A DNA stretch of 26,968 nucleotides from a virus (IMGVR_UViG_3300030101_002068:1-26968), one strand, 5' to 3'; positions 2,364 to 16,959 are shown, numbered from the stretch's first letter. The notes: generated by a model not told the origin, from the letters alone. A program made the numbers and translations.

Positions 2364-2387
2364 GCAAGCCTTGTTCACAAGGCTTGC
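2364..2387. repeat. Perfect 10-bp hairpin with the amidoligase stop codon in its loop
   Basis: GCAAGCCTTG (2364-2373) and CAAGGCTTGC (2378-2387) are exact inverted copies around a 4-nt loop. The TGA stop codon of the amidoligase (2375-2377) lies in this loop. With the terminator just downstream it forms a double-hairpin 3' end, which could protect the mRNA or affect termination of translation. Confidence 0.7.
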
Positions 2388-3707: not shown

Positions 3708-3757
3708 TGGGATAATCCCATAATCAAATATAATATGTAATATATTACAAGTCAATA
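3708..3757 (-). promoter_or_regulatory. Promoter and palindromic operator of the amidoligase gene
   Basis: On the minus strand TTGACT (plus 3749-3754) is separated by 17 nt from TATATT. Just downstream, at the expected transcription start, is the perfect palindrome TGGGATAATCCCA (3708-3720), 26 nt before the start codon. The same TGGGA-N3-TCCCA pattern occurs before the GGCT gene and the recombination operon. A second palindrome, TGTAATATATTACA (3735-3748), fills the spacer. The placement predicts repression by steric block. Confidence 0.75.
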
Positions 3758-3842
3758 CAATAATTAAATATTTGTTCGGTTTTTTTTTAAGGGCTGGCGG
3801 TTTTACCGCCAGCCTGCCAGCTGGCGGCCAGCTGTTCCTGGT

Positions 3843-3890
3843 GCTGTCAGGCACCAGAAGCGAACAAAGTTTCGGGAAAGTCCTGACAGC
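3843..3890. repeat. Stem-loop enclosing a GCGAACAAAGTTTCGG motif
   Basis: The arms GCTGTCAGG (3843-3851) and CCTGACAGC (3882-3890) are a perfect 9-bp inverted repeat. The motif copy at 3860-3875 lies between them, next to a smaller inner repeat TGGTGC/GCACCA. Confidence 0.6.
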
Positions 3891-3942
3891 GAGCTGCCGC
3901 CAGGCAGCTCGATCCCCGTTCCGCCAGGCAGCGGCCCGATCC

Positions 3943-3958
3943 CCGAACAAAGTTTCGG
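3943..3958. repeat. Most symmetric copy of the dispersed motif, CCGAACAAAGTTTCGG
   Basis: The 16-bp sequence has inverted ends CCGAA and TTCGG around CAAAGT, so it looks like a dimeric protein-binding site. It is the best guess for the full form of the motif that recurs through the window. Confidence 0.6.
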
Positions 3959-4130
3959 AATGTTTGCCAGGCAGCCAGGTCATTTCCCGATTCTGGCCGT
4001 TGGCCAGCGAGCTGGAGCGAGCTGCCAGCGGGGAGGGCTAAATGGCACCCCCGCAGCCGAACAAAGTTTCTGGTTTTTGTCTGTACGCAGCGTGGATCGT
4101 CAGCGGGCTGGCGGAAGCCAGCCAGTTCGC

Positions 4131-4177
4131 ACGCTGCCAGCGGGCGAAAACCCGAACAAAGTGTCGGCTGGCAGCGT
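4131..4177. repeat. Stem-loop with 11-bp arms enclosing CCGAACAAAGTGTCGG
   Basis: ACGCTGCCAGC (4131-4141) pairs perfectly with GCTGGCAGCGT (4167-4177). The motif copy starting at 4152 occupies the right half of the loop. This is the longest perfect inverted repeat of the island. Confidence 0.65.
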
Positions 4178-4214
4178 TTCTCAGCCCGATTCTGCTAGTG
4201 AAGGCAGTCGCCTG

Positions 4215-4235
4215 CACCGTGCGACGGTGTTTTTT
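4215..4235 (+). terminator. Plus-strand rho-independent terminator
   Basis: CACCGT, loop GCG, ACGGTG, then six T residues on the plus strand. It lies at the right end of the GC-rich island and just past the stop codon of terS, which is read in the opposite direction. No plus-strand gene precedes it, so it implies a plus-strand transcript across the island or an insulator against antisense transcription of terS. Confidence 0.6.
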
Positions 4236-4244
4236 CCTGTAATT

Positions 4245-4766
4245 TTAGTGGATTACGCTATCTGAAGCTATCTCAGTCCGAACATTTTCCTCAGGCGTTA
4301 CATTTTTCATTCTATGTTCTGCCAGTTTCTTAAATTCTTCCAGTTTTTCAAGGATTTGCTCCCTGTTCAAAGTTCCCATATCCTCATGCATGACATGGGA
4401 TTTATTAACAAGTAGTCCAGTTGCCTTCAATCTTAGCTCTTCAGCCCGTATAGCATCACTAAAACGACCGTTTTGCCACGCATCATTACGCATCTTTAAT
4501 AAGTCTCGAACAGACTTCTCCACAGTAACTCCGAACTTTGCATTAGCTTCCATACGCATCTCTTGTAATCGCTCTTGTATAACGGGATTACGCAATAACC
4601 TTACCGCATCTACAGTTGGGTTTTTATACCCTGCATCTCTTGCTGACGCAGTTTGCGTCATGTCTTTGTACATGAAGTTATCAAGAAACTTTTGTTGTTT
4701 TTCTGTTAATCTTTTCCAACCTGCCTTAGACAAATCTTTTGATATTGTTTCTGCTACTTGTGTCAT
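4245..4766 (-). CDS. terS: Terminase small subunit (Terminase_2-like)
   Basis: 173 aa. TerS recognises phage DNA at the pac or cos site and loads the large subunit for packaging. The N-terminal part has the family signature: LTEKQQKFLDNFM near residues 20-32, then the TQTASARDAGY helix-turn-helix stretch and the LLRNPVIQERL helix. The rest is helical and charged, as in the oligomerisation region. The start at 4766 has SD AAGGAG 8 nt upstream; a longer reading to 4814 has none. The large subunit is not in the window, which is odd because the two genes are usually adjacent. An iteron-like repeat cluster lies just upstream of the gene and could contain the packaging site. Confidence 0.85.
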   Translation of the reverse strand: MTQVAETISKDLSKAGWKRLTEKQQKFLDNFMYKDMTQTASARDAGYKNPTVDAVRLLRNPVIQERLQEMRMEANAKFGVTVEKSVRDLLKMRNDAWQNGRFSDAIRAEELRLKATGLLVNKSHVMHEDMGTLNREQILEKLEEFKKLAEHRMKNVTPEENVRTEIASDSVIH

Positions 4767-4854
4767 AAAGTTACTCCTTAATAAACATATACATGAATAT
4801 TTTTGGATTCGCAACCGAACAAATATTTGCTATTGGAATATAATGGTATGGGGC

Positions 4855-5064
4855 GGTTACTTACCGCCCACCATAACCCCCTTTAGGGGGTAAGTCGTGG
4901 TAAGTTGGTAAGTAGCAATAAAAACAATGACTTACCGAACAAAGTTTACTTACGGTGTTAAATTGTAAGTACCGTAAGTAATATATATTTATTTAATAAA
5001 AACAATTAGTTACAAGTTACCGCCCGATTTACTTACCGTGGTAACTTGTAAGTTGGTAAGTAAA
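4855..5064. repeat. Iteron-like cluster of GTAAGT heptamers; candidate origin or packaging site
   Basis: Eleven heptamers of the form (G/T/C)GTAAGT or its complement lie at 4859, 4889, 4899, 4907, 4930, 4948, 4964, 4973, 5031, 5047 and 5055, in both directions. Two pairs form long perfect inverted repeats: TTACTTACGGT/ACCGTAAGTAA (4947-4957/4971-4981) and TTTACTTACC/GGTAAGTAAA (5028-5037/5055-5064). Hairpins GGGCGGT/ACCGCCC (4852-4858/4864-4870) and ACCCCC/GGGGGT are also present, plus an AT-rich stretch at 4980-5010. The right end lies inside the 3' end of the metallopeptidase gene. Clustered short repeats beside AT-rich DNA suit a replication origin; the position next to terS suits a pac or cos site. 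Confidence 0.6.
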
Positions 5065-5435
5065 TCAGCCCAAATACCCTTGAATTGTTCTTCATTTACA
5101 CCATAGCTACATAGTGCTTTTTTCATAATTCTAGTTGCAGTTTCTGTCCATACGATTGCCTGCTCCATAGCATACTTCCATGCCCCTATTTCTTTTTCTA
5201 ATAGGTCATTATCCATGGATTGATTTTCTCCTACCAAGTGTCCTATTTCGTGCAATGCGGATACATAATAACCCGTATTCTTGGTTGGTCGTATCATGAT
5301 AACCTTAGTTTTTTGATTAGCATAATAACAAGGTGTTATATCATCTAACGGTTGGTATTTAACCGTTATCTTATGCTTTGCACATAATTCTTGGATATGC
5401 AAAGCCATATCAATACGTTTTACTAGATTAGGCAT
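5010..5435 (-). CDS. HExxH zinc metallopeptidase, ImmA/IrrE-like
   Basis: 141 aa. The motif ALHEIGHLVG (H62, E63, H66) followed by E(K)EIGAWKYA with E82 as probable third zinc ligand is the gluzincin pattern of ImmA/IrrE-type peptidases. Members of that family in phages and mobile elements often cleave an XRE-type repressor to start induction (family knowledge). Here the only XRE gene lies 3.2 kb downstream in another operon, so that pairing is inference. The C-terminal 17 residues are encoded by the GTAAGT repeat cluster and may be less constrained. The gene is last in a chain of 1-nt-overlapping genes and has SD GGGAGAT upstream. No signal peptide, so probably cytoplasmic. Confidence 0.75.
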   Translation of the reverse strand: MPNLVKRIDMALHIQELCAKHKITVKYQPLDDITPCYYANQKTKVIMIRPTKNTGYYVSALHEIGHLVGENQSMDNDLLEKEIGAWKYAMEQAIVWTETATRIMKKALCSYGVNEEQFKGIWADLLTNLQVTTVSKSGGNL

Positions 5436-5623
5436 TAGTTACTATCTCCCAATAAAATAATTAATTCATCAAATTTTCTTCTAAAAAACAATAGTTCTTC
5501 AACATGGTTATCGTCATATTTGTTAGAATTTATAAGTGTAGTAAAATCTTTATTCATGTTAACTAACTTATTCCTGCTAATATCTTTAAATTCAACAAAA
5601 AACTTTTTGTGTACTTCTAACAT
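5435..5623 (-). CDS. Small unknown protein (62 aa)
   Basis: I do not recognise this protein. It is charged, Lys/Asp-rich and predicted helical, with no cysteine motif and no membrane segment. SD AAGGAGG before the ATG is strong. It overlaps its neighbours by 1 nt on both sides, which shows a translationally coupled early operon. Its size and position suit a host-takeover or anti-defence protein, but nothing specific supports that. Confidence 0.7.
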   Translation of the reverse strand: MLEVHKKFFVEFKDISRNKLVNMNKDFTTLINSNKYDDNHVEELLFFRRKFDELIILLGDSN

Positions 5624-6027
5624 TACAGTTTCCCCTCCTTAAATGTCGGCATATAGCCATCAAGTGTATATTCTACATAAATGTCATTAATAGGATTAAT
5701 AACCTTCACGTTATCAGAATAGTAGCCCTCCTCGATAGCCCACCGAACAAGTTTTTCCTCCAATATCCAAAAGTTATTACTTTCATGGGTATCTCTTTCT
5801 AAATCTAATTCCCATTTAAAAGTTTCACATTCGTTACCCATGTAGTCTTTTGTTGGTTGTTTATGACCACGGATATAATAAAAATTATCTCTTCTAATAT
5901 CAAAGTCTCTTTTATCAGAATAAGTAAATAATAATTCTTTACCAAATTCATGACCAAATCGCTCTTTTAAATTATCAACAATATCTTTGTTGTCAGATAA
6001 ATTAAAATAATGTCTATAAATAATCAT
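5623..6027 (-). CDS. Unknown early-type protein (134 aa)
   Basis: No family is recognised. The protein is acidic and aromatic-rich (many Tyr, Trp and Phe) and soluble, with no signal peptide. It begins MIIYRHYFNLSDNKD and contains ECETFKWELDLERD near the middle. The SD AGGAG lies upstream of the ATG. It is coupled by 1-nt overlaps to the genes before and after it. Confidence 0.7.
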   Translation of the reverse strand: MIIYRHYFNLSDNKDIVDNLKERFGHEFGKELLFTYSDKRDFDIRRDNFYYIRGHKQPTKDYMGNECETFKWELDLERDTHESNNFWILEEKLVRWAIEEGYYSDNVKVINPINDIYVEYTLDGYMPTFKEGKL

Positions 6028-6308
6028 TACACATTCTCCTCTTTAACAGTATAGTTTCCATTTTTATCCTGCCTAAATACATTTAAATCATCATCAACAA
6101 TAAATGGCGGTTTAACAGTTGCATTAGAAACAAAATATTTAAAATTATTTTTATCTAGTAAATCGATAAAATTTTTAAGATTGCCAAAACCACATTCAAT
6201 ATCAATATTAAATATTTCTTCATGTTCACTACCATACTCTTTATTGTGAACACTAATTCTAGTTTTAACATTATGATTAGTGCGAAATTGTTTTACTATA
6301 TTATCCAT
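6027..6308 (-). CDS. Unknown early-type protein (93 aa)
   Basis: Unrecognised. Mixed alpha/beta composition; starts MDNIVKQFRTNHNVKTRIS and is rich in Asn, Asp and Lys. A GGAG SD precedes the start. This is the first gene of the four-gene coupled cluster that ends with the HExxH peptidase. An AT-rich promoter-like region with an ACTTGTAA box lies just upstream, separating it from the small HTH-like gene at 6373-6567. Confidence 0.65.
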   Translation of the reverse strand: MDNIVKQFRTNHNVKTRISVHNKEYGSEHEEIFNIDIECGFGNLKNFIDLLDKNNFKYFVSNATVKPPFIVDDDLNVFRQDKNGNYTVKEENV

Positions 6309-6372
6309 ATCAAGTACTCCATAAATTAAGTTATATATTATATATATATCTATATGAAATATATTACAAGTA
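6309..6372 (-). promoter_or_regulatory. AT-rich early promoter with ACTTGTAA box
   Basis: On the minus strand ACTTGTAA (plus 6364-6371) is followed by 17 nt and TATATA-type -10 sequence, then the SD and start of the 93-aa gene. The same box, spelled (A/G)CTTG(T/C)AA, recurs upstream of the genes starting at 3682, 8193 and 8733, so it may be the -35 element of the phage's early promoters. No operator palindrome is seen here. Confidence 0.45.
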
Positions 6373-6567
6373 TTATTTTATATATAATATTCTCCTTGCT
6401 TGACTTTCAGTTAAATCAAAGTGTTCAGCGACCTCTTTTATGCCAAATTTACGGATTGTTTTTCTTTCTTTATGAATACCCGTAATCTCCTCACTCATAA
6501 CTTTACCTTTATTTTCTTTAAAAAATTCTTTTACTTCTTGTATTTTTTCTTCACTAAATTTTGTCAT
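6373..6567 (-). CDS. Small helix-turn-helix-like protein (64 aa)
   Basis: The C-terminal half, with KFGIKEVAEHFDLTESQARRIL at residues about 40-62, reads as a helix-turn-helix: a helix, a turn at LT, and a recognition helix with SQARRI. The N-terminal half is a charged helix. SD AGGAG lies about 6 nt before the ATG. It probably binds DNA as a small regulator or adaptor. The fold call rests on pattern only; no exact family is named. Confidence 0.65.
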   Translation of the reverse strand: MTKFSEEKIQEVKEFFKENKGKVMSEEITGIHKERKTIRKFGIKEVAEHFDLTESQARRILYIK

Positions 6568-6772
6568 ATAATCTCCTAATTAAATTAATATAGGCAATCT
6601 ACAAATTTTGGTTTCTGAATTTAAGCAACCAACCATTTTGCACATAAACAATTTATAAGTAATAATATCACATTCACGGGGATAAATTGTTCAGTGATTT
6701 GTAGTATCACGACCTGCCTATTAGCCGAATGGAGGAGTGGTCGCCCCCGAAACCCGAACAAAGTTCCAGGGG
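6568..6772. other. Intergenic leader with motif hairpin, no gene seen
   Basis: About 205 bp between two minus-strand genes. The left part is AT-rich and could carry the promoter of the 64-aa gene. The right part holds inverted repeats: TATTAGCC on the minus strand pairs with GGCTAATA across about 50 nt; GGGCT/AGCCC flanks the stop codon of the upstream gene; GTGAT/ATCAC surrounds a 7-nt loop. A tRNA was looked for and not found. Confidence 0.45.
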
Positions 6773-6773
6773 C
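6743..6773. repeat. Hairpin presenting CCGAACAAAGTTCCA
   Basis: GCCCC (6743-6747) and GGGGC (6769-6773) enclose the 15-nt sequence CCGAACAAAGTTCCA (6754-6768). The identical 15-mer, in the opposite orientation, lies between inverted arms at 8908-8938. Two intergenic sites sharing an exact loop and different arms suggest that the loop is the functional part. Confidence 0.6.
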
Positions 6774-6979
6774 TAATAAGCCCTTGGGTCTTCGTATTGT
6801 TCTTTTTCTTCTTCAGTAGCACAATCTAAACAAACATTGTTCCCGTTTTTATCAACAAAAGCAATATAATCAGCTTTACTATAATCATGGCAATCTCTAC
6901 ATTGATAGCCAACCTTGGATATAGTTTGTTTCTTTTGTAGTCCTTTAATGTATCGTGATAGATATATAATAGCCCCCAC
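6773..6979 (-). CDS. Small zinc-ribbon-like protein (68 aa, GTG start)
   Basis: Contains CRDCHD near residue 27 and CLDCAT near residue 54, two CxxC pairs about 24 residues apart, as in a one-zinc ribbon. The start is GTG at 6979, supported by SD GAGGAG 5 nt upstream; an ATG two bases earlier is out of frame. The C-terminus is acidic. Such small zinc proteins in early phage operons often bind host proteins or nucleic acid, which here is inference only. Confidence 0.65.
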   Translation of the reverse strand: MGAIIYLSRYIKGLQKKQTISKVGYQCRDCHDYSKADYIAFVDKNGNNVCLDCATEEEKEQYEDPRAY

Positions 6980-6981
6980 AT

Positions 6982-7191
6982 TTACTCCTCTACTTTTGTT
7001 AAATACTTTTCATTATCTTCGTCAATAACTTCGCCTACCCAACTAAAATCAAGTTTACCGCTATCATCAGTGTACAATATTGGCTTACCGTTTTTGTCCT
7101 CTATAACATCTCCATTATCATCATATTTACAAAATGTTATATCCCATACACCATAGTGATTAGGCATTTTAAACATACCGTTACCGTTCAT
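6982..7191 (-). CDS. Unknown acidic small protein (69 aa)
   Basis: Rich in Asp, Glu, Gly and Asn, with a repeated DxNGxxxxDKNGKP-like pattern that looks like beta turns. No family is recognised. The start at 7191 is preferred: it gives SD GGAGG a 9-nt spacing and a TAATG coupling with the upstream gene. An ATG six bases earlier is possible but too close to the SD. It is coupled to the zinc-ribbon-like gene downstream. Confidence 0.6.
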   Translation of the reverse strand: MNGNGMFKMPNHYGVWDITFCKYDDNGDVIEDKNGKPILYTDDSGKLDFSWVGEVIDEDNEKYLTKVEE

Positions 7192-7382
7192 TACCATTTA
7201 CCTCCCGTTTTATTTATGTCAATAAAAGTTTCACTACAACTGCTACAACAATCAATAGAAACTATATTATCCCATGCAAAATTAAAATCATCAGTTGTAA
7301 TTTCATTTGTGTTAAATGTTTCTTTGCAAACACCACAAGCGATTGTATCTTCTTCTACAATATTACTAATATATATACTCAT
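7191..7382 (-). CDS. Small double-CxxC protein (63 aa)
   Basis: CGVC near residue 17 and CCSSC near residue 45 make a probable zinc-binding knuckle, with an acidic stretch between. SD AGGAG lies 6 nt before the ATG. It overlaps the downstream gene and sits 2 nt from the upstream stop. It resembles the other zinc-ribbon-like protein of this operon in size and layout but not clearly in sequence, so the two could be distant paralogues. Function unknown. Confidence 0.65.
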   Translation of the reverse strand: MSIYISNIVEEDTIACGVCKETFNTNEITTDDFNFAWDNIVSIDCCSSCSETFIDINKTGGKW

Positions 7383-7384
7383 GA

Positions 7385-7816
7385 TTAACTCCTGCTATTA
7401 GGTTGCATTTTACCGATAGGCGGTAATTTTAACTCACGACCTTGTTGACCTTTTTTCTTACCGCCCACATACCTATCTTTACCAACTTTAATTTTCACAT
7501 TCTTAAAACCAAGTTTCTCATAATAATCTATAAGCCTGCTAGTTTTTAATCTTTGCAAAGAATTACTATCGGGAAAATTAATAACGTCAGTATTATCAAA
7601 AGATAACATAGAATTACGACCTGCTAAGTTTTGAACATAATCAACAGTGTCATTATATTCATCTAGTAGTATATCTTTATTATCCCCATAATCGGGGCTA
7701 AAACAATCTATACCTAGATTTTCCCAATATATAGTTTGACCTACCTTACGTTGTTTATTCTTACGTTTACGTTTTTCTTCTTCTTCATCATCAATAATAT
7801 GTTTAATATTATTCAT
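7385..7816 (-). CDS. Unknown early-type protein (143 aa), faint acetyltransferase-like stretch
   Basis: The start at 7816 (MNNIKHI) is chosen because GGAGA lies 6 nt upstream and the ATG overlaps the preceding stop in ATGAATAA; a longer reading to 7837 lacks an SD. Near the N-terminus is a long run of Glu, Lys and Arg. Residues around 92-105 read SRLIDYYEKLGFKNVKI, which resembles the last helix-strand of GNAT acetyltransferases, but the acetyl-CoA loop is absent, so I do not make that call. The C-terminus is basic and Gly-rich. Confidence 0.65.
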   Translation of the reverse strand: MNNIKHIIDDEEEEKRKRKNKQRKVGQTIYWENLGIDCFSPDYGDNKDILLDEYNDTVDYVQNLAGRNSMLSFDNTDVINFPDSNSLQRLKTSRLIDYYEKLGFKNVKIKVGKDRYVGGKKKGQQGRELKLPPIGKMQPNSRS

Positions 7817-8036
7817 CAGTATCTCCAACATATTCATAAAAATTATTATTAAAAAACTTTTTTAATTCATTCATAATATCTTTATGACTTTCTTTATTTA
7901 CTGTCCAACTATGGGTAGAATTATTCTCACTATCCACAATTTTCATTGTAAAACCATATTCAGAATTTACCAATTTTTGTAATTGGTTTTTATAGTACAA
8001 ATTCCTGCCTGCTACAGTAATATTTTTTTTATGCAT
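7809..8036 (-). CDS. Unknown small protein (75 aa)
   Basis: Start at 8036 (MHKKNITVAG) with SD AGGAG 8 nt upstream; a longer reading to 8084 is less likely because it would overlap the upstream gene widely. Alternating charged and hydrophobic residues suggest a small alpha/beta fold. It is coupled to the genes on both sides. No family recognised. Confidence 0.6.
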   Translation of the reverse strand: MHKKNITVAGRNLYYKNQLQKLVNSEYGFTMKIVDSENNSTHSWTVNKESHKDIMNELKKFFNNNFYEYVGDTDE

Positions 8037-8037
8037 A

Positions 8038-8193
8038 TTAAAATCTCCTGCCATATCGTCTAAACTGCTCCCACTTATAATCACGGATAATTTTAACTAT
8101 ATCATCATAGTCAACTCTTTTACTTAAAAACATACCAACAATCATATTAGTGGTGGTGCCTTTTTCTATTTCTTTAATAATTTTATTCTTCAT
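8038..8193 (-). CDS. Unknown small basic protein (51 aa), first gene of the early operon
   Basis: Start at 8193 (MKNKIIKEIE) is chosen because AGGAG lies 8 nt upstream; starts at 8199 and 8235 would place the SD too close or behind. Two helices with a basic C-terminus ending RRYGRRF suggest nucleic-acid or protein binding. The promoter lies just upstream, so this gene leads the six-gene run down to 6773. Confidence 0.6.
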   Translation of the reverse strand: MKNKIIKEIEKGTTTNMIVGMFLSKRVDYDDIVKIIRDYKWEQFRRYGRRF

Positions 8194-8199
8194 ATTCAT

Positions 8200-8250
8200 A
8201 ACTCCTTTATAATAATAATATGTATTATAATTCATATTGCAAGTAAAAAA
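8200..8250 (-). promoter_or_regulatory. Early promoter with ACTTGCAA box
   Basis: Read on the minus strand: ACTTGCAA (plus 8237-8244), then TATAAT (plus 8224-8229) and further AT-rich sequence, then SD AAGGAG and the 51-aa gene. With TTGCAA as -35 and a 17-nt spacer the -10 would be ATTATT. The exact -10 is uncertain. Confidence 0.45.
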
Positions 8251-8253
8251 AAT

Positions 8254-8733
8254 TTACTTTTTATTACCGCTAAAATACTTCATTCTATAAGCATTTTTAG
8301 GTTGTCTATCTTGAATGGTATTAGTATGCACATGATGGCAATGCGACCACCCTAAAGAATTGTATAAATGAGAAGTATCTAAACCAAAGTCCTTATAACC
8401 TTCTTTGATACAATTAAAGTAACTGTTAGATGGCGGAGAAAAACTCGTACTGTTCATAGTATAAGTCATCATACCCATGATTTCTATTTTACCATATAAG
8501 TTTGGAAAACCCTCATACAAGTCTAATGCCTGCTCACACTCTTCTGTAATCTCCCATAAACCCACGGGCAACATATCATGATTATTGGTTGACGGTTGAA
8601 TGTCTGCAACACCACGAAATACTAACTTCCAATTTGGAATATATAAACTACCTAACTGTTTTGCATTAGGACAACGAAAAGCCATTTGGCTAAGATTAAG
8701 GTTACTACCGTATGCGATATATAATTTTGTCAT
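8254..8733 (-). CDS. Gamma-glutamylcyclotransferase-like protein (GGCT/AIG2 family)
   Basis: 159 aa. GGCT enzymes release 5-oxoproline from gamma-glutamyl amines; related ones act on other gamma-glutamyl tags. Visible signature: AYGSNLN at residues 7-13 (substrate loop), then PVGLWEIT at 56-63 and LDLYEGFPNLY at 70-80, with E74 as the predicted catalytic glutamate. Length is normal for the family. SD AGGAG lies 7 nt before the ATG. The gene stands alone with its own promoter region, and the perfect palindrome TGGGAAAATCCCA lies 35 nt upstream, the same operator type as before the amidoligase. Amidoligase plus GGCT pairing is known from comparative genomics (Aravind group analysis of amidoligases), so the two probably make and remove one gamma-glutamyl or peptide-type linkage. 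Confidence 0.85.
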   Translation of the reverse strand: MTKLYIAYGSNLNLSQMAFRCPNAKQLGSLYIPNWKLVFRGVADIQPSTNNHDMLPVGLWEITEECEQALDLYEGFPNLYGKIEIMGMMTYTMNSTSFSPPSNSYFNCIKEGYKDFGLDTSHLYNSLGWSHCHHVHTNTIQDRQPKNAYRMKYFSGNKK

Positions 8734-8766
8734 TCTTTACTCCTGTAATTAATAATTTAATACTAC

Positions 8767-8817
8767 ATGGGAAAATCCCATAAGTAAATAATAATTATAA
8801 AAAAACATTTTACAAGC
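8767..8817 (-). promoter_or_regulatory. GGCT promoter with palindromic operator
   Basis: ATGGGAAAATCCCAT (8767-8781) is a palindrome whose core TGGGAAAATCCCA matches the operators at 3708 and 16563 in all outer positions. Upstream on the minus strand are GCTTGTAA (plus 8810-8817) and TATAAT-like sequence after a T-run. The operator lies between the -10 region and the SD, consistent with repression. Confidence 0.7.
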
Positions 8818-8869
8818 AAAAAAAATAATTTATTGTAAAAATAACACTCATATTATTTCCTCCACACTT

Positions 8870-8900
8870 AACCAGCAGTTATTTCTGCTGGTTTTTTTTT
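8870..8900 (+). terminator. Strong plus-strand rho-independent terminator
   Basis: AACCAGCAG (8870-8878), a 6-nt loop, CTGCTGGTT (8885-8893), then T residues to 8900. The stem is perfect and the T-run is nine long, so termination of plus-strand transcripts should be efficient. Read on the minus strand it has an A-run before the stem and no T-run after it, so it would not stop the primase-helicase transcript. Confidence 0.8.
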
Positions 8901-8907
8901 ACAGGGA

Positions 8908-8938
8908 GCTGCAGGTGGAACTTTGTTCGGCCTGGAGC
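8908..8938. repeat. Imperfect stem-loop with the CCGAACAAAGTTCCA loop
   Basis: GCTGCAGG (8908-8915) and CCTGGAGC (8931-8938) pair at 7 of 8 positions. The 15-nt loop is, on the minus strand, exactly CCGAACAAAGTTCCA, the same 15-mer as at 6754-6768. Confidence 0.6.
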
Positions 8939-8976
8939 CTTCATGAGATGAGTCTTCATGGGATAAATGTTCGGGT

Positions 8977-11139
8977 TTATATATTATCTCTGGCAGTCGT
9001 TGCTTCATACTCGCCCCGACTCATCACCCCGACTGTCGTGCCAAGCCACTTACGACCACCAGCAGTACTAAAACTGTACTTGTCAATTCGATTCTCAGTT
9101 ATAAGTTCCCGAACAATACCGTCCAGTACCCGTTGAGATAAATTGTTCAGGACTTCAGGAGCGTCAGCATCAGACATGCGATTTATCAAAGAATCAGCAC
9201 CGCCCTGTTGAGATAAAGCTCTACCCTCCCGTTCACAACGACCAATCCACTCGTATATGGCAGTCTTTCTGTTATCCCGATTAGTTCCCATATTCAGTTG
9301 TTCAATATCTTCACTGCGATCAACCAGCAGTCCAGTGTTTAAATCCCGAACAAATTTACGCACCTGTCTTTTTGCAACCCCGTTCGACTTGACAACCGCC
9401 CCGTCAAAGCACCGATTACGCTGATATTCTATGTTCAACTCTTTACACTGGCGTTTTGCAGACTTCTCATCTACCTGCCACAACGCAAAAGCACAACGCA
9501 CACCGTCTACAAGGGCAGAAGTACCCCGAATAAGGTTTCTGGCTTGTTCTGGTGTTGATATAACGGCATCATCTTTAACCTTGGTCATGTGATGGCACAT
9601 CATCACTGAAGCTCCAGTTTCCGAACCTATTTTCGACATAAGCCCCGTTAAAGCAGCCCCCGCTGCTGGATCAGAATTTACATCTGCATGAACAAAAGAA
9701 GCCAGTGGATCAAATATGATCAGCTTCAGGTTATTGATCTGTAATATTTGTTCGTATATACGCTCAAACTCAGCAGAAGTTGTAAACTCACCGTGTATTT
9801 GCTGTAATATAGGGAAAACACCACCAGCGTTAGGCAAAGCAACGACCCGAAGCTCATGATTGTATTCCAGCCGATTATTGTTCGGGTCAAGACGCTGGAT
9901 TCTCCTGTGCATCTCAGCTTCATCATCTTCTGCTGTAAATATGACTACATTCCCGAACTCTGTTACATTTGCCCCGAAGGAACTGGTCATAGAAGCCCCC
10001 GAAGCTACCTTCATAGCCAAATCTAGTGTTAACATACCCTTACCAGCATCACCCGCTGCCGATAAAATTATAGGAACCCCGAGCGGAAATGTAGAATCTA
10101 CTATAAATTTTTGTTCGGGTGCAACGCCAGTAAATCTGGATACCAGCATACTATCGTCCAGCAGGTTAATATTATGTTTTGTTACATTATTAGGTGTACT
10201 GAGGAAGCCATTAATATCAAAACCCTCAGAAATAGCGTCATCAGCGTCCCATCTTTCAGGTTTACCCCGAGGAAGTGTAAGCATCTTGACTGACTTAGCA
10301 TTAGCGTTCAGGGCTAACTCCTGAACCAGCTCAGCTAATTTTTTACCAGCGTTGTCATTATCAGCCCATAAGATAAGCTCCTTGCCTTGCAATGGAGAAA
10401 AGTCATACTGTGATGCTGATTTCTTAGTGAGCATACCCGCACCTCCCATAGTGCAAGTAGCTGTGTAACCTAAGTTATTTAGTGCATCTGCACACTTCTC
10501 ACCTTCTACCCAGATAATTGTATCCGAAGCTAAAATGTTCGGGATATTATACAATGGTCTAACATCAGGCATGCGAGGATATGGGTGATTACCAGTAAAC
10601 TGCCTAAATTCTTTCTTAGGTTTACCATGTGTATCCAGTACAGGATTACCTGAATTATCCCGAACAAGGTATTTACGCACAGCACATATAACCTGACCTT
10701 CAGAATTTTTGTACAAATACTCCGAATCGTATGGTGTTTGCCAGTTGATCTGGACTTTTACAGGATTCTCTGCTGGCTGCTGCCGAACAAAGTTGCTTGT
10801 TTCCCCCAGGTAGTCTGCAAACATCTTCTTAATTTCTGGTAGCTTCATGTTTCTACCTTCCATCAGTATCTTGACGATACCTCCAACACCATCACTACCA
10901 TTAAAATCTTGACCCTTCATAAAGTATGGACTCCGAGGATCAATATCTATTTTTAAAGATTTACCCGCTTCTCCCTGTAAAGACCCGATTGAAAACAAAT
11001 GGCCTTTAACCTGACCTTGTGGAAAAGTCTCCCGAAGAACATCTATCTGCACCTGACTTGGTACTTTTCTGGATATTTCATCAACTAATTCTTTTGCTGT
11101 AACACTATATTTAGTGTTGTCAAAAGGCACTATACGCAT
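8977..11139 (-). CDS. Bifunctional primase-helicase (TOPRIM plus RepA-like ATPase)
   Basis: 720 aa. The N-terminal 115 residues resemble the DNA-binding start of phage primases but lack zinc cysteines. The TOPRIM part shows WVEGEKCADAL (E212, E214) and LWADNDNAGKKLA (D260, D262), the metal-binding acidic residues. The C-terminal RecA-like domain has Walker A AAGDAGKG at 361-368, FTAEDDEAEMHRR near 401-413, Walker B KLIIFDPLASF with D477, and MMCHHMTK near 516-523, as in RepA/AAA_25 replicative helicases. It should unwind the fork and make primers. SD AGGAG lies about 9 nt upstream. The coding sequence looks richer in GC and in CCCGA words than its neighbours and carries six full CCGAACAA/TTGTTCGG copies. 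It may have entered from another genome. Confidence 0.85.
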   Translation of the reverse strand: MRIVPFDNTKYSVTAKELVDEISRKVPSQVQIDVLRETFPQGQVKGHLFSIGSLQGEAGKSLKIDIDPRSPYFMKGQDFNGSDGVGGIVKILMEGRNMKLPEIKKMFADYLGETSNFVRQQPAENPVKVQINWQTPYDSEYLYKNSEGQVICAVRKYLVRDNSGNPVLDTHGKPKKEFRQFTGNHPYPRMPDVRPLYNIPNILASDTIIWVEGEKCADALNNLGYTATCTMGGAGMLTKKSASQYDFSPLQGKELILWADNDNAGKKLAELVQELALNANAKSVKMLTLPRGKPERWDADDAISEGFDINGFLSTPNNVTKHNINLLDDSMLVSRFTGVAPEQKFIVDSTFPLGVPIILSAAGDAGKGMLTLDLAMKVASGASMTSSFGANVTEFGNVVIFTAEDDEAEMHRRIQRLDPNNNRLEYNHELRVVALPNAGGVFPILQQIHGEFTTSAEFERIYEQILQINNLKLIIFDPLASFVHADVNSDPAAGAALTGLMSKIGSETGASVMMCHHMTKVKDDAVISTPEQARNLIRGTSALVDGVRCAFALWQVDEKSAKRQCKELNIEYQRNRCFDGAVVKSNGVAKRQVRKFVRDLNTGLLVDRSEDIEQLNMGTNRDNRKTAIYEWIGRCEREGRALSQQGGADSLINRMSDADAPEVLNNLSQRVLDGIVRELITENRIDKYSFSTAGGRKWLGTTVGVMSRGEYEATTARDNI

Positions 11140-11200
11140 TATATTGTACTCCTATACACCATTTACACCTAGACCCGAGCAATCCCTAAATTGTTCGGGT

Positions 11201-11890
11201 TTAATTCCAACAAGTATCTCTAAATTCACATCTTTTACATAAAAAATAATCTGAATCCATAGCAATTCTTGGTAAAATTTCATCATGCTTCACTGCTGTT
11301 AAAATTTCAACAGCTTTATCACTTGTCTTTTGAGCTAACTCTTTATCAAAATCAACAAATTCTATATAAATTTCACAAGTATTTTTGTTAACAACCGTAA
11401 ATAAAGCAGGATTGTCTGTTAAATCCATATATGCTTGATATAAAGCAATCTGTGAAGCATACGTTAAATTAACTTGCTTTACACCTTTCCGAACAAACTC
11501 ATTAAAACTCCTGTCATTAGCAGATTTACACTCCCATAACATAGGGTACTTAAACTCACTTGATCCACCGCATATAACGCCATCTATATGACCTCGAATC
11601 TGATCATCTGCTATTGAAAAACCAAATTGTTCGCCATTTTTATCAGTGCTTTTAAGATCAAAGCCAGCATTATATATCCAACCATGAGCCATATCTTCAA
11701 TTACATGACCAAACTGGAATATTCTTAATAACTTAGCACTAAACTCACTCTCTTTATCTGGCTTTTTACCCATATACCTATACTGTATCTTGCGTGAACA
11801 AGCATCTCCGAGAGACGAAGCACCTAAATATTTTCTAGGTTCCTGTTTTTTCTGTTTGTCCAGTATTGCTTGATCTATCATTTCCGACAT
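11201..11890 (-). CDS. Cas4/RecB-like PD-(D/E)XK nuclease with Fe-S cluster cysteines
   Basis: 229 aa from the start at 11890. Catalytic residues are visible: E65 in HVIED, D103 in GHIDGV, E120 and K122 in LWECKSA, and the QIALYQAYM helix near 147-155. Four cysteines, C31 and C218, C221, C227 (CKRCEFRDTC), match the Cas4/AddB arrangement that holds a 4Fe-4S cluster. It probably acts as a 5'-3' exonuclease in recombination with the nearby Sak4-like ATPase and ssDNA-binding protein. No cas genes or CRISPR array are present, so a CRISPR role is unlikely. A start at 11986 with SD AAGGA is an alternative, giving 32 more residues but a 152-nt overlap with the upstream gene. The chosen start codon overlaps a dispersed-motif copy, CCGAACAATG. 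Confidence 0.8.
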   Translation of the reverse strand: MSEMIDQAILDKQKKQEPRKYLGASSLGDACSRKIQYRYMGKKPDKESEFSAKLLRIFQFGHVIEDMAHGWIYNAGFDLKSTDKNGEQFGFSIADDQIRGHIDGVICGGSSEFKYPMLWECKSANDRSFNEFVRKGVKQVNLTYASQIALYQAYMDLTDNPALFTVVNKNTCEIYIEFVDFDKELAQKTSDKAVEILTAVKHDEILPRIAMDSDYFLCKRCEFRDTCWN

Positions 11891-12131
11891 TGTTCGGCTT
11901 ATTTTTTCCGAATGGGAATTCTGCTTCTTTGTCGCTAATGTTGAATTTGAGCCAGATTGCTGCCAAATAAGTTTCGTTAACGTCATCTTCTATATCCTTC
12001 ATTTGTTGAATACTTGAAATTAAATACAGGACATCTTGCTCGTCCAACTCTGTAAATCTTTTATTCCAGCCTACTTGACCGAACAATTTACCTACTTTTT
12101 TTAATGAATCATAAGACAATCTTCTATCCAA
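11835..12131 (-). CDS. Unknown small phage protein (up to 98 aa, TTG start)
   Basis: No family is recognised. The middle, LFGQVGWNKRFTELDEQDVLYLISSIQQ, is predicted helical and amphipathic; the tail is Asn/Lys/Thr-rich and overlaps the exonuclease frame. The frame opens with TTG at 12131; a second TTG at 12119 has a better-placed GGA sequence, so the true start is uncertain. The gene overlaps both neighbours. The position between helicase and exonuclease suggests a replication or recombination accessory role. Confidence 0.55.
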   Translation of the reverse strand: MDRRLSYDSLKKVGKLFGQVGWNKRFTELDEQDVLYLISSIQQMKDIEDDVNETYLAAIWLKFNISDKEAEFPFGKNKPNNVGNDRSSNTGQTEKTGT

Positions 12132-12385
12132 TCTGTTATAATTTTATTTTTCTTTGTTTTTATATTTTTCATTGTAAGTGAAGCAACAATATCACCTTCA
12201 TGTATGGCCATGGCACTTGCATAATTACAATCTGTAAACAAAAAATACATTTTGTTTATTTCTTTTTTAATACCTTTTAATAAATCATCACGATCTAATA
12301 CATAATATTCAAGCGGTGTATAAAACCCAACTTGTTTTACTTCTTCTTCACAATCTAATATCATATTGACTTCAACTAATGGCAT
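12101..12385 (-). CDS. Unknown small phage protein (94 aa)
   Basis: Acidic at the start and Lys-rich in the middle; begins MPLVEVNMILDCEEEVK. Alternating strands and helices by composition, two lone cysteines, no motif. SD AGGTGA lies about 5 nt before the ATG. It follows the SF2 helicase by 18 nt and overlaps the next gene by about 30 nt, so it is part of the replication operon. Function unknown. Confidence 0.6.
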   Translation of the reverse strand: MPLVEVNMILDCEEEVKQVGFYTPLEYYVLDRDDLLKGIKKEINKMYFLFTDCNYASAMAIHEGDIVASLTMKNIKTKKNKIITDWIEDCLMIH

Positions 12386-12403
12386 TTAATCACCTATCAT
12401 TGT

Positions 12404-14149
12404 TTAGTATGCTTTACCTGAAATTCTGTTTAAATATTCAAGTCTTTCTCTTCTTACTTTGTCTGACCGCTCTTGTATTTTTATTTCTTTTTGTTTCTTA
12501 TAAATAAGAAAATCAACTTCTTTTTTGTTAAACAAGTAATTTATAAGACAAGCCGCCTTATATTTTGTCCAAGAAAAATCAAAAGGATTAATTCTATAAC
12601 CTTTTTTAATCAATATGCTTTTTTGTTTTTCACTTACTGGTTCATTTAACCACCGCTTATTCTTTTTAGCATTACTATTACTCTCAATCTTCCTTAGAAA
12701 GTCGTCAGCAGATGCAATAGCTTGTTTCTTAGTTCCTACACTAACTACTCTTAATTTATCATTTCTTGACTTTGTAAACCCAAAAAACGTATCGTTTAAA
12801 TTAACAACCATAGCAAAGCCATTAAATCCTGATGCCATTAAACATTTATCAGTATCAAAAACCCGAATCCAACGAAACGGAGAAAGATTTATCAATTCAA
12901 CCTCTGTCATATTAAATTCTTTGAGCTTCTTTTCTTCTTCTTTAGCAAAGTCATGACCACATATAGGACACTCACGAACACCCAAAGGAACTACTGAATT
13001 ACATTCAGGACATTGTTTTTGTGGTGCTTGACCATTCTCGTTTGATGCAACGTCATCTAAGTTAACTTCTTCATCTAACTCACCATGAGTTAATATTGAT
13101 GTTCCAAAATCTAAAACTATACACTCAGTTTTAATTATGTTCGGGTGTTCACCTGGATCAATGGTACGAAGACCTCTGCCAATCATCTGCACCATTGTTG
13201 ATTTATACGAACAAGGTCTTGTTAAAATAATACAAGATACAGGAGGTGAGTCAAAACCCTCAGTCAACACCGCCACATTAATTACAACCTGCAAATCACC
13301 ATGCGACAAACTGTGCAGCATATTAACCCGAACATCTTTCTTTGTGTCTCCTGTAAGAACTTCTGCCCGAACACCTTGCTTTACAAACTCATCACATAAA
13401 TCTTTAGCATGGTTCTTTGTAGAACAGAAAACAACTGTCTTACGGTCTGATGCTTTTTCATGCCATTCATTAACAACCCGTTCATTAATAGGTCTTTTGT
13501 TCATGATACGAGCTACCTCGTCCATGTTAAATTCATCAATCGTTTTTCTAACTTGACTAAGTTCTTTTTGCACTCCGACATTAATTACAAATGTTTTAGG
13601 TGATACAAGAAAACCCTCACGGATAAGTGTTGCTATCTCTATTTGGTGTGAACAATTAGAAAAAACCTGCTTTAAACCCTTGCCATCACCCCGATTAGGA
13701 GTGGCTGTGAACCCTGCTACCCTAACATTTGGATTAATTTCTTTTGATTCTTTAATTATATTCAACCAAGAATTTGCTATAGTATGATGACTCTCATCAA
13801 TAATAATTAGATTAACCCGCTGCATACTTGATAAATTGTTCGGTCTTGAAAGCGTTTGTACCATGGCAAACACCACATCACCTGACCAATCCTTCTCATC
13901 AGCATTTAAAATACTCGTTGATATATTAGGATTTATCTTTTTAAACTTGTCCATATTTTGATTAACAAGTTCATCACGGTGTTGTAGCACCAATACTTTA
14001 TTGTTCTCCTTGTGCATCTTCCCTATCAAAGACGATAGCATAATAGTTTTACCCGCACCCGTTGGTGCAACGACTATTGTATTTTTATGTTTGTTTAATG
14101 ATTTAATAGCAGAGTTAACTGCCACATCTTGATAAGGTCTAAGTATCAT
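12404..14149 (-). CDS. Superfamily II DEAD/DEAH helicase with zinc ribbon
   Basis: 581 aa. Motifs in order: Walker A APTGAGKT (28-35), DESH (118-121), TAT (148-150), TEGFD (296-300), and QMIGRGLR (321-328). A four-cysteine zinc ribbon, CPEC and CPIC at 380-397, is followed by a C-terminal region of about 180 residues that is Lys-rich. The layout matches phage helicases of the RecG/UvsW/XPB-like group that remodel forks and recombination intermediates. It overlaps the SleB-like gene by 4 nt (ATGA), so the two are coupled. It probably serves replication restart or recombination; the exact substrate cannot be seen. Confidence 0.9.
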   Translation of the reverse strand: MILRPYQDVAVNSAIKSLNKHKNTIVVAPTGAGKTIMLSSLIGKMHKENNKVLVLQHRDELVNQNMDKFKKINPNISTSILNADEKDWSGDVVFAMVQTLSRPNNLSSMQRVNLIIIDESHHTIANSWLNIIKESKEINPNVRVAGFTATPNRGDGKGLKQVFSNCSHQIEIATLIREGFLVSPKTFVINVGVQKELSQVRKTIDEFNMDEVARIMNKRPINERVVNEWHEKASDRKTVVFCSTKNHAKDLCDEFVKQGVRAEVLTGDTKKDVRVNMLHSLSHGDLQVVINVAVLTEGFDSPPVSCIILTRPCSYKSTMVQMIGRGLRTIDPGEHPNIIKTECIVLDFGTSILTHGELDEEVNLDDVASNENGQAPQKQCPECNSVVPLGVRECPICGHDFAKEEEKKLKEFNMTEVELINLSPFRWIRVFDTDKCLMASGFNGFAMVVNLNDTFFGFTKSRNDKLRVVSVGTKKQAIASADDFLRKIESNSNAKKNKRWLNEPVSEKQKSILIKKGYRINPFDFSWTKYKAACLINYLFNKKEVDFLIYKKQKEIKIQERSDKVRRERLEYLNRISGKAY

Positions 14150-14568
14150 TCCATCTCTCTTCTATAAAATATATGGTCGTTAATACGAACAGTCCTTGTA
14201 AACTTATATGACCAACTAGGGTTAACATAGTCTGCATGGTAATGAGTAGCACCGCTTGTGGTATCATATAAATAGCCTGCCATTGTAGCTTCAGCTATAT
14301 CAATAGCAAAACCCCAAGCCATCATGTCATTTACAATTTCAGGCTTACCATCACACCAAAAACTAAATTGACATTTATCCCGAATAGGTTTGTTTTTATC
14401 CCATGTATAATAATAACCTTGTTTAACAACTTCACATACATCATTTGGGTATCTGTGGTCATTAACTCTGTTCACAACAACTTGAGCAACCGCCACTTGC
14501 CCCACCATGGGCTCACCTCTTGCTTCAAAGTAAATCGCCATGGCTAAACACATAATTGATTCAATCAT
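14146..14568 (-). CDS. SleB/CwlJ-type cell wall hydrolase
   Basis: 140 aa. The N-terminal part, AMAIYFEARGEPMVGQVAVA, is the core of the Hydrolase_2 (SleB) family, with E15 in YFEARGE as the probable catalytic glutamate. VVNRV, FSFWCDGK and ATHYHADYVNPSW complete the family pattern. It should cleave peptidoglycan glycan strands and serve as endolysin. There is no clear signal peptide or holin nearby. It is coupled to the SF2 helicase gene downstream, an odd place for a lysis gene, and its leader can form alternative hairpins that would hide or free the SD. A second lytic enzyme is encoded at 17338-17784. Confidence 0.85.
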   Translation of the reverse strand: MIESIMCLAMAIYFEARGEPMVGQVAVAQVVVNRVNDHRYPNDVCEVVKQGYYYTWDKNKPIRDKCQFSFWCDGKPEIVNDMMAWGFAIDIAEATMAGYLYDTTSGATHYHADYVNPSWSYKFTRTVRINDHIFYRREME

Positions 14569-14670
14569 TTAATCCTCCCGATTGTGGCGGGGAGTTTTGC
14601 GTCCTATGTACTCCCCAAACATAGTCCTAACGCACTACAAGGTGTTGACGCTAGAAATCTTAGAAAATTA
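14569..14670 (-). promoter_or_regulatory. Possible translational switch in the leader of the SleB-type gene
   Basis: Read on the minus strand. GGGGAGT (plus 14610-14616) can pair with ACTCCCC (14589-14595) in a 7-bp hairpin. Alternatively CTATGT/ACATAG (14619-14624/14604-14609) can pair, which puts GGGGAGT in a loop and leaves CTCCC free to pair with the GGGAG of the SD (14574-14579). The two folds exclude each other: the first leaves the SD open, the second can hide it. No ligand or protein is suggested by sequence. Confidence 0.45.
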
Positions 14671-15255
14671 TTACTTAGCCCAATCGGGTGTGGGATTAGA
14701 AGAAGATTGTTGAACTTGCTGAACTTGTGGTTCACTAGGCAAATCAGCAAGTATATAATCTGACTGACCAGGTGTTATTGCAGTGATTAAAGAATTTTTA
14801 TCAGCATAACCGTTCGTACCTTTTTCAACACCAATTTTAACACATAAATTCATACCGTTTAAATCTTCAATAGAATTTATTTGCCTTTTATTATTAGCTT
14901 CAGGTGACATGTCGTCAGTTCTAATTTGGCGAGCACTTTCTAAAATAGAACGTAAAGTTCTCATACCTATTTCTTTTGCTTGTGGTACACCTCTTTCACT
15001 TAACTTATCACCGTCAACAAATAATTTGTGCCAAAATTTTCTACCTTTAAATTCACCACCCGTAATAGTAAATTCCATAGGCAACCATTTTGCTTTTGTT
15101 GTTTGACTTGCAACAAAAAAATTACCTTGACCAAACTCAGGTATTTCTAAACTCCCTGATTCAAGTTTTAATGAAACTCTAGCTACTGTGTTAGCAGGCA
15201 TAAGCTCTATTGGTCCTAATCCTTTATCAGGTTGTACATCATTAAAATTAAGCAT
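14671..15255 (-). CDS. ssDNA-binding protein candidate (DUF669-like)
   Basis: 194 aa. The sequence plan, with TTKAKWLPMEFTITGGEFKGRKFWHKLFV near residues 53-80, followed by helices and a beta segment NGMNLCVKIGV, resembles DUF669 phage proteins, thought to be OB-fold ssDNA-binding proteins. The C-terminal 25 residues are Gln/Ser-rich and disordered and end PDWAK, as in SSB tails that bind partners, though the very end is not acidic. It overlaps the Sak4-like ATPase gene by 8 nt, a common pairing in phage recombination modules. Confidence 0.65.
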   Translation of the reverse strand: MLNFNDVQPDKGLGPIELMPANTVARVSLKLESGSLEIPEFGQGNFFVASQTTKAKWLPMEFTITGGEFKGRKFWHKLFVDGDKLSERGVPQAKEIGMRTLRSILESARQIRTDDMSPEANNKRQINSIEDLNGMNLCVKIGVEKGTNGYADKNSLITAITPGQSDYILADLPSEPQVQQVQQSSSNPTPDWAK

Positions 15256-16105
15256 TTATTTCTCCATTTTCTTTATTTAAATTAAAATTTAAGACACGAT
15301 CCTCAACATTAGTATTACCAGACATCTTTTGTAATAAATTACCTAAATGAGGTGGTTCTAATAAATCTAAACTACCTGACCTATCTTTTGCAGGATAGTT
15401 CCATTCATTTAGAGTATGACATACAAAAGCACGGAATGGTGGAGTATTTTCATCACCAGGCATTACTGCCATAGTAATTACTTCATCTACAATTCCTGGT
15501 AATTCACGACCCGTTTTTGAGCCTTCTATTTGTAAGTCATGTATTGGTCTACCGTAATCGTCTGTACGACTATCTAATATTCCAACAAATACAACATTTT
15601 TATCTCTAATATGTTGTAAATGCGTAAGCCAAGCCATCATTTCACGACCTTGCATACCATAGGCGGCACGAGTATCGAGCCTGCCATTAGAGGTTTTGCA
15701 ATCAGGTTGACTTTGACACCATTGAAAACACAATCTACCTGCTACGGTAATACTATCAATAAATATACTGTCATATTTAGACAACCATTCTTGAGGATTG
15801 CCTTTCTCTTTACAAAGTTGTTGATAGTGTGCTTCAGAATATACTTGGTCATCATTTAAAGCAGGGTTATGTCCACCAATGTAACAAGCAAAATCACGAC
15901 ACTCTTGCCACGTTCTAGGACGAATAACATCTATAGGCCACCCCTCAATGGCGGCATCACCTGCTTCTAAATCCATAAACAAAGTTTTTTCAGAATCCAT
16001 GGTGCGGACAAGAGTTGTCTTGCCTACACCACTAGTTCCAACGATAACTATTTTATGACCTCTTTTTTCTTTAAGACGGTCTTCTGCGGAAATTATTTTT
16101 AACAT
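15248..16105 (-). CDS. Sak4-like RecA-fold ATPase (AAA_24)
   Basis: 285 aa. Walker A GTSGVGKTT at 23-31, an acidic FMDLEAGD segment at 43-50, Walker B-like SIFIDS with D117, and a sensor-like stretch VVFVGILDS. This is the layout of AAA_24/Sak4 phage ATPases, which assist single-strand annealing. It lies between an unknown 140-aa gene and an SSB-like gene, with 1-nt and 8-nt overlaps, and close to two nucleases, so a recombination role fits. The operon is preceded by the shared TGGGA-N3-TCCCA operator. Confidence 0.85.
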   Translation of the reverse strand: MLKIISAEDRLKEKRGHKIVIVGTSGVGKTTLVRTMDSEKTLFMDLEAGDAAIEGWPIDVIRPRTWQECRDFACYIGGHNPALNDDQVYSEAHYQQLCKEKGNPQEWLSKYDSIFIDSITVAGRLCFQWCQSQPDCKTSNGRLDTRAAYGMQGREMMAWLTHLQHIRDKNVVFVGILDSRTDDYGRPIHDLQIEGSKTGRELPGIVDEVITMAVMPGDENTPPFRAFVCHTLNEWNYPAKDRSGSLDLLEPPHLGNLLQKMSGNTNVEDRVLNFNLNKENGEINA

Positions 16106-16527
16106 TATTCATCTCCCTCAAATGTTACTTTTACACCCTGCAACGAAACAGTACGGAACTTTTTAAGTTCGTGCTGAATAGCAGGTAAGGCATTGGTATA
16201 TTTAGCTTCAGGTATAGTTACAGAAACTTTAGATAAATGTTCTGCATCTTCAGCTTTAAGTGTATTAAGATATTTTATTAAACCCTCTTGATCCCATGCA
16301 ACTTTTTTACGCAACTCTACTTTAACTTGCGTATTCCCTTCCATAAGATTAGCAGTACCAAAGTCTTTACCGCCTTGATTAAGCACTTGTTGTGCTTCTT
16401 CTGTATATCTATTTTCAAGAAATTTATTGAAGTCTTGTAAATCTTTTTGAGCTTTTTTAAGATTATCATTTAATCGTGCTTGTGTTTCAGCAAGATTAAA
16501 CTTATCAATGTATTCTACTTTTGACAT
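16105..16527 (-). CDS. Unknown protein heading the recombination operon (140 aa)
   Basis: The start at 16527 (MSKVEYIDKFN) has SD GAGGTG about 4-5 nt upstream; a start 12 nt earlier has none. The N-terminal 60 residues form a long amphipathic helix or coiled coil, followed by a beta-rich region, VKVELRKKV and SVTIPEA. I do not recognise the family. It shares a 1-nt overlap with the Sak4-like gene and is first in the operon, so it may be a recombination cofactor. Confidence 0.7.
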   Translation of the reverse strand: MSKVEYIDKFNLAETQARLNDNLKKAQKDLQDFNKFLENRYTEEAQQVLNQGGKDFGTANLMEGNTQVKVELRKKVAWDQEGLIKYLNTLKAEDAEHLSKVSVTIPEAKYTNALPAIQHELKKFRTVSLQGVKVTFEGDE

Positions 16528-16562
16528 AGTACACCTCATTTAATTGTTAGGAACTTATAACA

Positions 16563-16588
16563 TGGGAATTTCCCACAAAAATGTCAAC
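16563..16588 (-). promoter_or_regulatory. Promoter and operator of the recombination operon
   Basis: On the minus strand a perfect -35 box TTGACA (plus 16582-16587) is followed by the perfect palindrome TGGGAAATTCCCA (plus 16563-16575) inside the spacer, then ATGTTATAAG as a -10 candidate. The palindrome has the same TGGGA arms and 3-bp centre as those before the amidoligase and GGCT genes. Its place between -35 and -10 would let a bound protein exclude RNA polymerase. Confidence 0.7.
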
Positions 16589-16959
16589 TACTTTTTTTTA
16601 GAAATTTTAATTTCTATGTTATTGACTGCTTTCATTAGCTTCATTTTTATTTTAAAATCAGTAGTTTGCACTCCTTTTGCATCCTCAACAATTTTTTCTT
16701 TTTTTCCATTTTCATGAACTAATGTATAAACAAAGTCAGCTATATATTTACAAATTTTAATATCATTTACAATTATATCAAACTTTACTTGTCGTTCTAA
16801 ATCTTGAACAACACCTGCCATTTGCATAGATGCAAGTTGACCATAACGCTCTGCTTCCCATTTGGAATCAAACTTAAATCCCATAAACTCTGTTTTTTTA
16901 GCGTTATACTTATTATACTTCCCATAACGTATGGGATAGTGTATATTAGTTTTATTCAT
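16588..16959 (-). CDS. DUF1064-like phage endonuclease
   Basis: 123 aa. Conserved features of DUF1064 (PD-(D/E)XK fold) are visible: KYNKYNAKKTE at 14-24, FKFDSKWEAERYGQL at 28-42, YIADFVY at 72-78, and KIVEDAKGVQTTDFKIKMKLM near 88-108, which gives the D-(x)n-E-x-K core with D75, E91 and K94. It probably cuts branched or single-strand DNA during replication. No good SD precedes the ATG. The first codons carry the TCCCATA/TATGGGA palindrome, so this start overlaps the control region of the divergent RHH gene. Confidence 0.75.
   Translation of the reverse strand: MNKTNIHYPIRYGKYNKYNAKKTEFMGFKFDSKWEAERYGQLASMQMAGVVQDLERQVKFDIIVNDIKICKYIADFVYTLVHENGKKEKIVEDAKGVQTTDFKIKMKLMKAVNNIEIKISKKK
16920..16936. 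promoter_or_regulatory. Palindromic operator candidate before the RHH gene
   Basis: TCCCATAACGTATGGGA has perfect 7-bp arms around ACG. The arms use the same TCCCA half-site as the operators at 3708, 8768 and 16563, but turned inside out. It lies about 40 nt before the RHH gene, next to -10-like TATATT (16942-16947), and inside the start of the divergent nuclease gene. It may serve autoregulation of the RHH protein. Confidence 0.55.

Follow-up and report, generated by a model that had tools for sequence, protein, structure and literature searches.

The window analyzed in this study is a 26,968-bp stretch of a marine bacterial virus (IMGVR_UViG_3300030101_002068:1-26968; genome G+C content of 35.5%), in which exactly three copies of the palindrome TGGGANNNTCCCA (TGGGA-N3-TCCCA) were identified, at 3708-3720, 8768-8780, and 16563-16575. 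They are located before an amidoligase gene, a gamma-glutamyl cyclotransferase gene, and a recombination/replication operon, respectively, while a related site lies before the gene of a candidate ribbon-helix-helix (RHH) protein. The features of the locus are as follows:

1441 to 1845, minus strand: XRE/HTH_3 protein (Pfam PF01381, E=1.5e-5), downstream of the amidoligase gene; rival candidate regulator
2375 to 3682, minus strand: Amidoligase_2 gene (Pfam PF12224, E=2.9e-6; phrog_2443)
3708 to 3720: putative operator O1, TGGGATAATCCCA, near +1 of the promoter that serves the amidoligase gene; kept in relatives
3727 to 3755, minus strand: putative sigma70 promoter of the amidoligase gene, TTGACT-17-TATATT, directly upstream of O1
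8254 to 8733, minus strand: gamma-glutamyl cyclotransferase (AIG2/GGACT-like) gene (phrog_2520, E=1.2e-26; PF06094 below its cut-off)
8768 to 8780: putative operator O2, TGGGAAAATCCCA, upstream of the cyclotransferase start; kept in close relatives
8977 to 16527, minus strand: recombination/replication operon
16105 to 16527, minus strand: phrog_2480 protein, first gene of this operon
16559 to 16587, minus strand: putative promoter of this operon, TTGACA-17-CATGTT, spanning O3
16563 to 16575: putative operator O3, TGGGAATTTCCCA, within the -35/-10 spacer of the operon promoter; clade-wide
16588 to 16959, minus strand: DUF1064/Holliday-junction-resolvase-like gene (PF06356, E=2.3e-15; phrog_190, E=2.3e-31), divergent to the RHH gene
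16919 to 16947, plus strand: putative RHH promoter, TTCCCA-17-TATATT, from sequence; overlaps O4
16920 to 16936: putative operator O4, TCCCATAACGTATGGGA, with tail-to-tail half-sites at 10-bp centre spacing
16978 to 17166, plus strand: 62-aa Arc-like RHH protein (phrog_3180), candidate repressor

The cyclotransferase gene heads a block of small minus-strand ORFs. After phrog_2480, the recombination/replication operon encodes a Sak4-like annealing ATPase, phrog_2300 (SSB/DUF669-like), a SleB-like hydrolase, a helicase, a PD-(D/E)XK-like nuclease, and a primase-helicase, where the hydrolase, helicase, and nuclease were named from sequence motifs rather than by family search. Besides these genes, G+C-rich islands were observed at 2101-2400, 3801-4300, and 8901-9100, with up to 62% G+C against the genome value given above. 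The islands seem to be non-coding, with chance-like ORFs only, and several contain AAACTTTGTTCGG-type repeats; GAACAATTGTTC palindromes were found in comparable G+C-rich regions of relatives.

Dinucleotide shuffles of the window gave an expectation of 0.01 copies of TGGGANNNTCCCA, and none of 100 shuffles reached three. No copy with one mismatch was found anywhere in the window, no further arm word containing three or more G/C occurred in it three times as a 5-N3-5 palindrome, nor did this happen in any of 200 shuffles, and no TGGGA/TCCCA pairs were found in it at other short head-to-head spacings. Besides O1-O3, the window contained a single short-range pair, arranged tail-to-tail at 16920. 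Start codons follow the three palindromes at distances of 25, 34, and 35 nt (3682, 8733, and 16527, respectively). Three perfect 13-bp palindromes with identical arms had been described previously from the sequence alone (hereafter, the sequence-only reading), and that description holds, with its distance of 26-36 nt to the start codon correct to within one base. All three copies of TGGGA-N3-TCCCA in the window lie on or just after sigma70-like promoters. The palindrome is repeated on promoters above chance, as is expected of a phage operator.

O1 is placed 6 nt after TTGACT-17-TATATT, and the same geometry was found in the related contig G017 (TTGATA-17-TATATT, followed by 7 nt and the operator). 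O3 occupies the spacer of TTGACA-17-CATGTT, with its right end overlapping the -10 hexamer. The promoter at O2 is less clear, comprising an A/T-rich region with TTGCTT upstream and a possible TATAAT or TATTAT. Hexamers alone prove nothing here, because AT-rich sequence gives many chance promoter-like matches (77 found in the window vs 66 expected by chance); the putative promoter at O3 is supported by the TTGAC upstream of the site, which is conserved in relatives. Relative to these promoters, O1-O3 fall within the interval of -35 to +20, where repressor sites are expected. A protein bound at such sites would block the polymerase, so repression would be the natural reading. Additionally, a perfect 14-bp palindrome, TGTAATATATTACA, was observed at 3736-3749, in the spacer separating the -35 and -10 hexamers of this promoter of the amidoligase gene; it is present in G003 and absent from more distant relatives, and is possibly a second operator.

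Relatives were gathered with amidoligase, Sak4, and RHH queries, which identified about 60 related IMG/VR marine contigs. No relatives were found in phage records by DNA search or by search with the RHH protein (none among 50,697 records at an E-value of 1e-5), and Sak4 relatives occurred there only at less than 60% identity. The exact motif was present in 22 of 50 related records, while control matches numbered 0. Within clade A, defined by RHH proteins at least 76% identical, the operator was found in every readable operon promoter, with a CGGGA left arm in one sub-lineage. Among nine non-redundant operon promoters, all 10 arm positions were invariant, compared with 73% of the left flank, 63% of the right flank, and 74% of the spacer, an invariance that is partly by construction since the set was picked by the motif (left arm TGGGA or CGGGA only). 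When clade A promoters were chosen by gene position alone, all fit the motif with the allowed TGGGA/CGGGA left arm. Judging from these alignments, the operator is more conserved than its flanks in related phages, and TGGGA-N3-TCCCA is a real, conserved, and clade-specific phage operator.

The sites before the two enzyme genes had a narrower distribution. O1 was kept in three lineages (window/G001, G002/G003/G004, and G017), the last even though its amidoligase is 42% identical and its gene order is rearranged. O2 was kept in G003, G006, G011, and G012, only where the cyclotransferase is at least 85% identical, and G021 and G023 encode both enzymes without O1 or O2 sites. Because only O3 was kept clade-wide, the core target would be the recombination/replication operon, and the amidoligase and cyclotransferase sites are, on this comparison, subclade additions that partially extend the regulon. 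The sequence-only reading had asked for conservation of the sites in related phages, which was found, and had united an amide ligase/cyclotransferase pair with DNA recombination in one probable regulon. The shared operator and its conserved sites on promoters bear out such a regulon, but the union with both enzymes would apply to part of the clade only.

In G017 (27391-29303), and apparently in G019 as well, the cyclotransferase and amidoligase genes are adjacent, which they are not in the window, and this adjacency supports a functional pairing of the enzymes. A literature search for amidoligase with cyclotransferase in phages, by title and abstract, returned incidental annotation papers only.

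Outside clade A, the operator changed. In clade B, with RHH proteins 68-71% identical, the operon promoter contains TTGATATTTCCGTATAAATCCCATAT, with one TCCCATA half-site in the same place and the left half-site replaced. Operon promoters of distant clades were unrelated to the operator type, and inspection by eye revealed no convincing half-site common to the RHH and operon promoters of the more distant clades. From these sequences, it looks as though the operator turned over along with its regulator across clades. Many copies inside genes had been named by the sequence-only reading as evidence against an operator. None of the three exact copies in the window is intragenic, and the one weak instance lies outside it, as TGGGAAATTCCCA in a GroES-like co-chaperonin gene of G003 (43125-43137) and G017 (10357-10369), where it codes for GKFP. 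The GroES-like homologues of G035, G036, and G043 have neither the glycine codon nor TGGGAAATTCCCA, and this copy is probably a coincidence.

The fourth site, O4, is 41 nt upstream of the RHH ATG (16978), on the RHH promoter and within the opening 13 codons of DUF1064 (YGKYNK), the gene divergent to RHH. The related TCCCATA-ACG-TATGGGA that had been reported before the RHH gene is present, but its overlap with the DUF1064 codons and its reversed orientation had been missed: the O4 half-sites are tail-to-tail, in contrast to the head-to-head half-sites of O1-O3. In many relatives, the O3-type site extends to TATGGGA-N3-TCCCATA, such that O4 and the extended O3 type are the same 7-bp half-site pairs at 10-bp centre spacing in opposite orientations. 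The right arm of O4 is TAGGA in G023, G033, and clade B, all of which keep the RHH protein. The left-arm codons TAT-GGG-AAG were invariant in 17 sequences, as were other nearby codons, and this arm may be kept by DUF1064 coding. The placement of O4 is suggestive of an RHH autoregulatory site. A helix-turn-helix dimer normally cannot accept half-sites in both orientations. In the omega repressor, the pseudo-symmetry of the RHH fold allows direct and inverted repeats to be bound equivalently (PMC5016525), so the use of both orientations at O4 and O1-O3 would be compatible with an RHH dimer.

Similar to Arc/Mnt/CopG-type RHH repressors, the protein encoded beside O3 is small, with a KSVSV strand followed by T-x3-L-x3-A ... 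R-x-V-x3-I, its gene is located beside and divergent from its presumed targets and stays divergent to DUF1064 in relatives, and the operators lie on promoters, with probable autoregulation. The sequence match to this family is weak, however (E=8.7e-4, the best among the 17 of 32 RHH orthologues that matched the Arc-like repressor phrog_3180). Two AlphaFold2 monomer predictions gave no strand in residues 1-13 and one continuous helix over residues 14-53 (pLDDT 75, pTM 0.40), which differs from the helix-turn-helix expected of RHH. The window protein had no Pfam match, with single orthologues reaching ParD_like (0.1) and RHH_4 (0.21), a PDB search with it returned no significant RHH match (HP0222 at 0.8), and its profile had no match in a bacterial/archaeal genome collection. 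Its assignment to RHH, which draws on the PHROG Arc-like matches and the residue pattern, is weak by sequence.

From alignment to the general RHH family pattern, we take the DNA-facing strand residues to be W7, S9, and S11. These residues were invariant among lineages whose operon promoter has the operator or its TCCCA half, apart from L072 (Y7/A11). All 12 correctly parsed lineages with the W/S residues had TCCCA in the operon promoter, vs one of 14 others, although the correlation is weaker than these counts suggest because it is clade-level and confounded by phylogeny (few independent events). Lineages elsewhere had F/Y7 and/or G/A11. In L009, a later TTG was parsed as the -35 in this count; this lineage does carry the operator. 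Clade B keeps W7/S9/S11, yet has only one TCCCA half-site.

The phage XRE/HTH_3 protein could bind the operators in place of the RHH protein. Its gene, which is part of the O1 transcription unit and may use the promoter at O1, is conserved in the family, and a 5-N3-5 palindrome has the typical size and the symmetry for an XRE homodimer. Restriction-modification C-proteins are XRE dimers that act on short palindromes with N3, and their boxes share with the present sites a short palindrome, a 3-bp spacer, and promoter overlap. However, no restriction-modification genes were seen here, and the XRE recognition helix varied where the operator was constant (ITHRMYCFYES in the window and G003, VSPRMYRFYES in G017, VSSRMYRYYES in G021, and VSPRMYYFYES in G023). 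The XRE gene itself also has no such site upstream, and the tail-to-tail O4 would be left unexplained. Binding by the XRE protein is considered unlikely, and, on this comparison, the RHH protein is most likely the stronger candidate of this phage-encoded pair.

Recognition of TGGGA-N3-TCCCA by a host transcription factor, which would place the phage early promoters under host control, would fit the sigma70-like promoters at the sites. It appears even less likely, as the site type shifts between phage clades in step with residues of the phage RHH protein, and the operons targeted are the phage's own, with one of its regulators encoded beside O3. A final explanation, in which the palindromes are RNA hairpins or by-products of promoter composition, is highly improbable: a perfect inverted repeat is able to fold into a stem of 5 bp, and O3 does run into a -10 hexamer, but RNA folding was no better than in shuffles (z of -0.2, -1.7, and -0.7), the arms are invariant without compensatory changes, and O3, between the -35 and -10, would be untranscribed from that promoter.

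The preferred reading, to which we assign a probability of roughly 0.7, is that the candidate 62-aa RHH protein is an autorepressor of early operons acting through O1-O4. Bound at the palindromes, this phage-encoded repressor would shut down or delay early transcription units. Two RHH dimers would occupy a pair of TATGGGA half-sites spaced by one helical turn (10 bp). The pair is arranged head-to-head at O1-O3, and at O4, on the promoter of the RHH gene itself, it is tail-to-tail, where binding would lead to autorepression. The bound protein would block the -35/-10 spacer at O3 and cover the start point at O1. The recombination/replication operon would always be on early in infection, together with the cyclotransferase and amidoligase blocks in the subclade, and accumulation of RHH would turn all of them down jointly. 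A lysogeny repressor was also considered and rejected, as a tyrosine integrase was not found in the family records. Phage_integrase (PF00589) had no match in 25 family records, probably fragments, while controls were positive; timing control in the lytic cycle is therefore likelier than lysogeny maintenance.

Heptads of the omega repressor are contiguous and occur in longer arrays, unlike the two 7-bp half-sites here, which are separated by N3 (10-bp spacing). The two systems would be alike in using half-sites irrespective of orientation while the spacing stays fixed, as described for the omega repressor of pSM19035 (PMC5016525). The circuit type is ordinary phage control, to which this probable operator/repressor pair would add a case.

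A broader proposal is that a single virus-specific RHH repressor, which would read its half-sites in both orientations at one-turn spacing, couples recombination/replication to a peptide-amide module (amidoligase and gamma-glutamyl cyclotransferase), and that the operator and the RHH strand co-diverge across marine clades as a natural specificity series; it is tentative, with the odds somewhat against it. The assignment of a regulator to its operator is testable, and concerns a group of uncultured marine phages to which the phage collection searched contained no close relative. In one subclade, the phage amidoligase and cyclotransferase, which are poorly understood, would share an early switch with DNA replication, which hints at early action of both enzymes on the host. 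Studies of RHH specificity could also draw on the clade series.

Separately, the octamer CCGAACAA/TTGTTCGG was observed in 25 copies in the window, from 3772 to 26304, compared with 0.56 expected, and in 21-34 copies in the related contigs G003, G017, G036, and G043, compared with 0.6-1.5 expected. The copies are spread over both strands, over coding as well as non-coding sequence, and over every reading phase, with most of them located in the replication half. The octamer looks like a genome-wide signal, such as a recombination hotspot, uptake, or host-mimic motif.
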